DNA from: Dethiosulfovibrio faecalis | GTDB taxonomy: Bacteria; Synergistota; Synergistia; Synergistales; Dethiosulfovibrionaceae | Assembly: GCF_021568795.1 (NCBI RefSeq) | Contig: NZ_JAKGUE010000001.1 | Coordinates: forward strand, 124,001-188,000 | Length of the DNA stretch: 64,000 bases | Reading direction: 5' to 3' | In this document: positions 30,504-32,556 of the stretch, one piece after another | Numbering within the stretch: position 1 is the first letter of the stretch | Layout of the letters: the number at the start of each line of letters is the position of its first letter | Translations under genes and position numbers: made by a program | The notes under the pieces: generated by a model | The model's database searches: none | The model's input: only the letters and a program-made list of their open reading frames with translations | Told to the model about the DNA's origin: nothing

Positions 30504-30572
30504 GCTCAAATCATGGCGAGGCAAGAGTTAGAGTGTCGTGAACTCCCCTGCGCCGTAAGGAGTGGACATCCT

Positions 30573-31814
30573 TTGAAAGACAGACGAGTCGTTATCACCG
30601 GGCTAGGGGTCGTCAGTCCCATAGCCAATGGTAGAGAGGCATATTGGCAGGCTCTTAAAGAGGGAAAAAACGGCGTTGGCGCTATAACGTGCTTCGATGC
30701 CTCGGAGTTCTCGGTTCAGGTCGGAGCGGAGGTAAAGGATTTTGATCCGACCCAGTGGCTTCCCAAGAAGGAGGCTAAAAGGGCCGACAGGGTCATCCAG
30801 TTCGCCGTGGCTGCTTCGGATATGGCCATGGAAGATGCCGGTCTCAAAGCGGAGGACCTTGACTCCAATAGATTCGGCGTTTATATCGGTTCCGGACAGG
30901 GTGGAATCGAAACCTGTTTCGATAGTTTCCAGACGATGATGACCAAGGGACCCAAGAGGGTCAGTCCTTTCTTCATCCCCATGATGATAGGAAATATGTC
31001 CGCCGCATACGTGGCCATCAGGCATCAGGCCAAAGGTCCAAATATGTGCGTCGTGACCGCTTGTGCTACCTCGATACACAGTATCGGAGAGGCTACCAGG
31101 ACTATAGAGAGAGGCGACGCGGACGTCATGCTCTGTGGCGGAACCGAGGCCGCCCTTCGCTCTATCTGCGTGGCAGGTTTCGCAGCCATGAAGGCTCTCT
31201 CCACGAGAAACGACGAGCCCGAGAGGGCAAGCCGTCCTTTCGACAAGGACAGGGACGGTTTCGTCATCGGAGAGGGTGCGGGGGTTCTGGTCCTGGAGAC
31301 CCTCGAGAGCGCCAAGGCCAGAGGGGCCCATATCTATGGCGAGGTAGTCGGCTACGGTTCTACCTGCGATGCTGGCCATATAACAGCCCCGGATCCGGAG
31401 GGGAAAGGAGCCTCAAGGGCTATGAAGATAGCTATAGACCAGGCCGGTTGGTCCGTCGACCAGGTCGATCTGATAAACGCTCACGGAACCTCGACCCCCC
31501 TCAACGACAAGGTCGAGTCCATCGCCATAAGAAACCTGTTCGGCGAGGCCGCCGATCGTGTCATGATCAACTCCACTAAGTCCATGATAGGTCATTGCCT
31601 CGGAGCGGCGGGAGCTCTAGAGACAGTAGCTGCCCTTCAGTCCGTGGAGGAAGGTATCGTACATCCGACCCTTAACCTCGACGAGAAGGATCCGGATTGC
31701 GACGTAAACGTCATAACCGAGACTACCGAGGCCAAGGTGGACAGGTTCTTGGTCAACAGCTTCGGTTTCGGCGGACACAACGGCGTCCTGGCTATCCAGC
31801 GTTTCATCGATTGA
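30573..31814 (+). CDS. fabF: 3-oxoacyl-ACP synthase II
   Basis: FabF elongates acyl chains. RRVVITGLGVVSPIANG is at the start; the catalytic cysteine is Cys164 in VTACATSIHSIGEA, with NAHGTSTPLND and INSTKSMIGHCLGAAG for the histidines. TTG 30573 gives 413 residues, the family's usual length, and has AAGGAG 10 bases upstream. A longer in-frame ATG at 30513 would add 20 residues without similarity. Confidence 0.95.
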   Translation: MKDRRVVITGLGVVSPIANGREAYWQALKEGKNGVGAITCFDASEFSVQVGAEVKDFDPTQWLPKKEAKRADRVIQFAVAASDMAMEDAGLKAEDLDSNRFGVYIGSGQGGIETCFDSFQTMMTKGPKRVSPFFIPMMIGNMSAAYVAIRHQAKGPNMCVVTACATSIHSIGEATRTIERGDADVMLCGGTEAALRSICVAGFAAMKALSTRNDEPERASRPFDKDRDGFVIGEGAGVLVLETLESAKARGAHIYGEVVGYGSTCDAGHITAPDPEGKGASRAMKIAIDQAGWSVDQVDLINAHGTSTPLNDKVESIAIRNLFGEAADRVMINSTKSMIGHCLGAAGALETVAALQSVEEGIVHPTLNLDEKDPDCDVNVITETTEAKVDRFLVNSFGFGGHNGVLAIQRFID

Positions 31815-31821
31815 TATTCTC

Positions 31822-32556
31822 ATGTACGGACGGAAATGGGAAAGAAGTCTTTCTCTGATTCAGGACCGTCTGGGATACAGCTTCACCGATATAGAACTGC
31901 TCCGTGAAGCCCTGACTCATTCGTCCTACGCCCATGAGTCAGGGCTTCGTTCTTGGAACGAGAGATTGGAGTTCCTGGGAGATGCGGTTCTGGAGTTGGC
32001 TACCTCGACGAGACTTTTCAGGGCGATGAAGGATATGGACGAAGGGGGACTGACCAGGCTCAGGGCACGGTTGGTCCGTAAGGAAGCTCTTTTGACGTGG
32101 GCGGAGGCATTGAGTCTCTCGGGAGTTCTCAGGGTCAACCGGGGTCTAAGAAAAAAGGGGGAGGGTGGCGATCTCTCCTCCATGCATGCCGACGCCATAG
32201 AGGCCATCTTCGGAGCCGTCTATATGGACGGAGGTTTCGATATGGCGGAATCGGTGGTGAACCGCTATCTGGATTTTATGTTTGAAAGAGGGGATTATCT
32301 TCAGGACGGAAACTCGTCCATCGACCCCAAGTCGGAACTTCAACAGATCCTACAGATAAGGGGAGAGCCATTGCCGGAGTACAGGATCATTTCCCGTGAG
32401 GGACCTCCTCATAGTCCCAGATTCGAGGTGGAACTGTATGTATCGGAGGTCCTCCTGAGCAGGGGAAGAGGAAGATCGATAAAAGAAGCGGAGGTCCAAG
32501 CGGCTCGAGATGCGTTATCTTTGGTGCGATCGGTTGCAAAAGAGTTGCCTCGCTGA
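31822..32556 (+). CDS. rnc: Ribonuclease III
   Basis: RNase III cleaves double-stranded RNA, including the rRNA precursor. The endonuclease signature is NERLEFLGDAVLELA; a C-terminal double-stranded RNA binding domain begins DPKSELQQILQ. Length 244 residues. The ATG has no clear ribosome site and is only 7 bases after fabF, so translation is probably coupled. A perfect 15-bp inverted repeat lies 84 bases into the coding region. The order fab-acpP-fabF-rnc is widespread, but smc and ftsY do not follow here. Confidence 0.95.
   Translation: MYGRKWERSLSLIQDRLGYSFTDIELLREALTHSSYAHESGLRSWNERLEFLGDAVLELATSTRLFRAMKDMDEGGLTRLRARLVRKEALLTWAEALSLSGVLRVNRGLRKKGEGGDLSSMHADAIEAIFGAVYMDGGFDMAESVVNRYLDFMFERGDYLQDGNSSIDPKSELQQILQIRGEPLPEYRIISREGPPHSPRFEVELYVSEVLLSRGRGRSIKEAEVQAARDALSLVRSVAKELPR
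31906..31948 (+). repeat. Perfect 15-bp inverted repeat in the rnc coding region
   Basis: GAAGCCCTGACTCAT (31906-31920), 13-base loop, ATGAGTCAGGGCTTC (31934-31948). Two further G-T pairs could extend it to 17. It encodes REALTHSSYAHESGLR. As RNA it would be a long double-stranded stem, the kind of substrate the encoded enzyme cuts. Confidence 0.9.

Follow-up and report, generated by a model that had tools for sequence, protein, structure and literature searches.

A hairpin within the rnc coding sequence of Dethiosulfovibrio faecalis, conserved as RNA and a probable target of the RNase III that it encodes

Does the RNase III gene (rnc) of Dethiosulfovibrio faecalis carry, inside its own coding sequence, a duplex that serves as a target for the enzyme it encodes? 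The question is raised by a long hairpin near the start of rnc in the window, that is, the whole 64,000-nt stretch of DNA analyzed here. The genes near rnc were named by reading their translations, and the rnc protein matches PF14622 (E 3e-33), PF00636, and PF00035 in Pfam and scores above the cut-off of TIGR02191. The genes and the parts of the hairpin are located as follows.

30513..31814, + strand: fabF-like ORF directly upstream of rnc, with 7 nt from its stop to the rnc ATG
31822..32556, + strand: rnc, encoding RNase III of 244 aa with a catalytic domain and a double-stranded RNA binding domain
31904..31950, + strand: whole continuous helix, 17 bp including two outer G-U pairs
31906..31920, + strand: 5' arm of the stem, GAAGCCCTGACTCAT, codons E A L T H
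31921..31933, + strand: 13-nt loop between the stem arms, with synonymous identity at the background level
31934..31948, + strand: 3' arm of the stem, ATGAGTCAGGGCTTC, within codons H E S G L R

The rnc gene is probably co-transcribed with fabG-acpP-fabF and is probably the last gene of a fabG-acpP-fabF-rnc operon.

As a preliminary description of the locus had reported, the stem arms are fully complementary over 15 bp and lie 13 nt apart, with the first pair 84 nt past the rnc ATG (31822); RNAfold adds a small helix of three pairs within the apical loop. At 17 bp, the longest continuous helix is rather short for a substrate of RNase III. Positions 31880-31975 fold at -37.0 kcal/mol compared with a shuffled mean of -23.9 (z -4.1, 0/200), and a 66-nt region folds at -32.2 compared with a mean of -15.1 when the protein is held fixed (z -5.4, 0/200) by synonymous shuffling, in which codons were drawn according to the usage of rnc itself. 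Since the fixed-protein shuffles almost never match the native sequence, neither the encoded protein nor codon usage accounts for the fold. The rnc coding sequence contains a stable predicted RNA hairpin. The earlier estimate that such a structure would arise by chance with an expectation below 0.001 holds approximately for a hairpin inside a gene, but perfect hairpins of at least 13 bp are not rare genome-wide: 28 occur in a 464-kb sample of the genome (400 kb of it from outside the window), many of them terminator-like with loops of 3-5 nt. Among 356 sampled ORFs of at least 150 aa from the same genome, the rnc hairpin ranked second on raw score and first on synonymous-shuffle z (6.85), and a genome search found the gapped hairpin motif only once in the whole genome. 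The Rfam search returned no family at the gathering score, the best being sar RNA with 18.9 bits against a cut-off of 43.

A match to rnc was found in six genomes of the genus, including the window's own. In the other five the stem is always kept, the protein being more than 90% identical in two and only 53-57% identical in three; 8-10 of 10 stem codons are identical, compared with 32-41% of amino-acid-identical codons elsewhere in the divergent pairs. For the phylum-wide comparison, 136 rnc genes from the window's phylum were used, and a search of genome contigs contributed no more than two further RNase III genes, both distant. A stem in the same register (site A) is present in 16 of the 136 genomes, representing nine genera and four families, and the longest in-register run is bimodal, at 10-15 bp in these genomes and mostly 2-5 bp elsewhere. 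With one genome per genus, synonymous identity in stem-bearing genera is 67% for stem codons, 34% for loop codons, and 36% for the remainder of rnc, whereas in stem-less genera the same stem codons reach 37% and the rest of the gene 35%.

Changes in the stem itself point in the same direction. Among stem-bearing rows, both sides have changed in 4 of 15 pairs, a count as high being reached in 1 of 500 shuffles, and sliding the register lowers pairing from 93% to at most 45%; these rows were selected for having the stem, so such covariation counts are supporting rather than independent proof and are weaker evidence than the synonymous-shuffle and codon-identity contrasts. In genome G140 (L065) the stem is a rebuilt, AU-rich helix of 20 bp and the encoded ESGL has become ELKL, and in G168 (L023) a C-G pair has been swapped for G-C. 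G-U cells outnumber A-C cells 19:10 in stem-bearing genes compared with 178:274 in the others (Fisher p 0.01), which points to the mRNA strand. Selection on the hairpin as an RNA structure is well supported by these sequence comparisons, although it is patchy outside the genus: the expectation that pairing at synonymous sites would be kept in relatives held across the genus and in several further families and failed in the sister genus (g3) and in the majority of other genera, where, among the 136 genes, the RNase III protein is retained and the site A stem is absent. In genus g3 (L015-L020) there is also a second RNase III-like gene that is divergent, at 29-35% identity with that of the window; its ORFs reach about 674 aa and show extra downstream dsRBD-like matches in three cases.

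The history of the site appears to be one of repeated change, the site A label requiring at least 8 changes on the RNase III protein tree. Intermediate in-register stems in f8 g36 (6-8 bp), f7 g31, and f7 g39 suggest decay of an older stem; alternatively, site A may have been gained repeatedly. A whole-ORF scan of rnc revealed a strong hairpin at another position in many genera without site A. Under synonymous shuffling, the best helix reaches p<=0.025 in 46 of the 136 rnc genes, compared with about 6.6 expected, and in 30 of 53 genera, p-values over genomes being optimistic because the genomes are related rather than independent. Of these significant helices, 41 lie within approximately the first 180 nt of the coding sequence. 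A significant perfect helix is lacking in 23 of the 53 genera; a local-folding test raised the hairpin-positive genera from 30 to 36, and 17 were still negative after it. Only 3 of 88 flanking ORFs from the same loci reach p<=1/60, compared with 13 of 25 rnc genes, or 6 of 12 when one rnc per genus is counted. Examples of hairpins at other sites are as follows.

f6 g12, g18, g21, g22, g23, g24, g26, and g29: GACAGAGAGC/GCTCTCTGTC, 12-16 bp, with ALCH or ALRH replacing ALTH
f8 g33 and g44, and f6 g10: helix of 12-21 bp, about 70-80 nt beyond the start of the 66-nt region
f8 g35, g37, and g51: rnc hairpin immediately past the start codon
f8 g53: strong rnc hairpin away from site A
f1 g2: rnc hairpin away from site A, 17 bp
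part of f1 g3: rnc hairpin away from site A, 12 bp
f11, three genera: rnc hairpin away from site A, z -4.2 to -7.8

For the GACAGAGAGC/GCTCTCTGTC hairpin of f6, the covariation score was matched in 5 of 500 shuffles, and the number of pairs changed on both sides was not significant (122 of 500 shuffles). Hairpins at these other sites are better explained by a single function that has turned over than by a lack of function. A covariance model of the hairpin, run against 188 genomes, matched rnc almost exclusively, and six inspected places outside rnc proved to be terminator-like or unrelated palindromes. Family f11 shows a two-part rnc hairpin about 175-235 nt beyond the start of the 66-nt region in all four genomes (L107, L109, L128, L129), possibly near the region of the Staphylococcus aureus rnc cleavage site. 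A separate observation concerns L175:1001-1047 (G008), where an inverted repeat of about 19 bp, AACGTCATGACTCATTC...GTGAGTCATGACGTT, with no ORF longer than 120 aa across it, was picked by the rnc hairpin model through TGACTCAT.

We propose, with a probability of roughly 0.72, that the hairpin serves in cis as a target of RNase III in the rnc message, which would start decay of that message and lower the level of the enzyme by negative feedback. RNase III would recognize its own message through the hairpin duplex and cut it about 100 nt into the coding sequence; the cut would destroy the rnc reading frame, and the 5' fragment would still carry the fab genes that lie upstream; decay of the operon mRNA over its rnc part would follow, and the resulting drop in RNase III level would constitute negative autoregulation. 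RNase III as the reader, the cleavage, and the negative-feedback outcome are steps that we infer. Self-recognition is the simplest account of a gene that encodes a duplex-cutting enzyme and has repeatedly gained duplexes early in its coding sequence. The preliminary description had already read the hairpin as a possible RNase III self-target, a reading that gains from the pairing conserved in the genus and in several families and loses from the lack of site A in most genera. In our analysis, the best reading would be an autoregulatory site inside the coding sequence, as in S. aureus and Streptomyces coelicolor, but at clade-specific and shifting positions. For the phylum as a whole, we lean slightly towards recurrent selection on rnc for an RNase III substrate in the early coding sequence, the site having been repeatedly lost and rebuilt at new positions, with no fewer than seven distinct sites in all, and pairing having sometimes been restored through substitutions in the protein (ESGL to ELKL).

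The alternative that survives best, although we regard it as unlikely, is a selected mRNA structure acting without RNase III cleavage, through ribosome slowing, folding of the nascent catalytic domain, or another regulator. The data bear on selection of the pairing and of the stem codons rather than on the identity of the hairpin's reader, and the authors of the S. aureus study considered that a stem-loop in the coding sequence could slow elongation (PMC3386247). A role of this kind leaves unexplained, however, why shifting hairpins are enriched in the gene for a hairpin-recognizing enzyme and not in the flanking ORFs, and ribosome pausing in particular predicts a fixed codon position, yet the sites move. 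Far less probable is a transcription attenuator or terminator, or a 3' stabilizing element for the upstream fab mRNAs: the likely position of rnc at the end of the operon would suit such an element, but the hairpin was not called in a terminator scan and its 13-nt loop is unlike the terminator-like hairpins of the genome, and an intrinsic terminator (a GC-rich stem followed by a T run) was rejected, the T run after the stem being absent.

Slighter still is the case for an element acting in DNA, whether as a site bound by a regulator or as a palindrome prone to cruciform formation; in its favor, the TGACTCAT/ATGAGTCA arms do form a long dyad that is unique in the genome. This candidate was rejected, as complementarity rather than sequence is kept when the stem is rewritten (L065, L023), G-U, a mismatch in a DNA cruciform, is tolerated and favored over A-C, and other clades use unrelated sequences elsewhere in rnc. 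Equally improbable is chance combined with amino-acid constraint, by which EALTH...HESGL would happen to code for complementary arms and be passively inherited: the motif is conserved as protein and ESGL is common to most stem-bearing genes, but we rejected this explanation on the synonymous shuffles, which almost never equal the observed pairing, and on the stem-less genera, which have similar motifs at background synonymous identity, whereas stem codons in stem-bearing genes are conserved far above the rest of the gene.

Self-cleavage by RNase III within its own coding sequence is already known from isolated cases; the present comparisons give evidence of selection for an rnc hairpin over a large part of one phylum, at positions that shift from clade to clade. 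If the proposal of self-targeting is true, a regulatory element would move within its gene while its function persists, and the protein sequence, as the comparisons suggest, would bend to keep an RNA duplex. Such turnover of a cis-regulatory RNA inside a protein-coding gene is directly testable, and nature offers contrasts in the clades without an rnc hairpin and in one family without detectable RNase III. RNase III was found by neither P0001 nor PF14622 in any of the seven genomes G024-G029 (family f3) and G176 (f9), and TIGR02191 gave no match in the two of them that were tried (G024 and G176); four of the seven are 99% complete, and the phylum apparently includes an RNase III-less family.

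Among known systems, the preliminary description had chosen Escherichia coli as the parallel, where RNase III cuts a leader hairpin, rncO, and thereby lowers its own expression (Bardwell 1989, Matsunaga 1996, cited in PMC8708148, PMC3386247). Both hairpins belong to the message of RNase III itself, and cutting with lowered expression is known for E. coli; however, the E. coli site lies in the 5' UTR, whereas the present one lies inside the coding sequence and is codon-constrained. S. aureus and S. coelicolor, in which RNase III cuts inside its own coding sequence, are closer matches. In S. aureus, the enzyme cuts a stem-loop at about +296 of rnc in vivo and in vitro, wild-type RNase III accumulates 2-3 fold less than catalytic mutants, and the structure is conserved among staphylococci (PMC3386247). 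Its stem-loop is likewise located in the rnc coding sequence, but it is a long irregular helix, whereas the predicted target described here is a near-perfect helix of 15-17 bp at +85 to +127 in another phylum. In S. coelicolor, AbsB/RNase III also cuts a stem-loop in its own rnc coding sequence (Xu et al. 2008, reviewed in PMC10126417); the two systems share a stem-loop within rnc on a polycistronic transcript (in D. faecalis, a probable one), with cleavage by RNase III known for S. coelicolor, and they differ in the second site that S. coelicolor has upstream of rnc.
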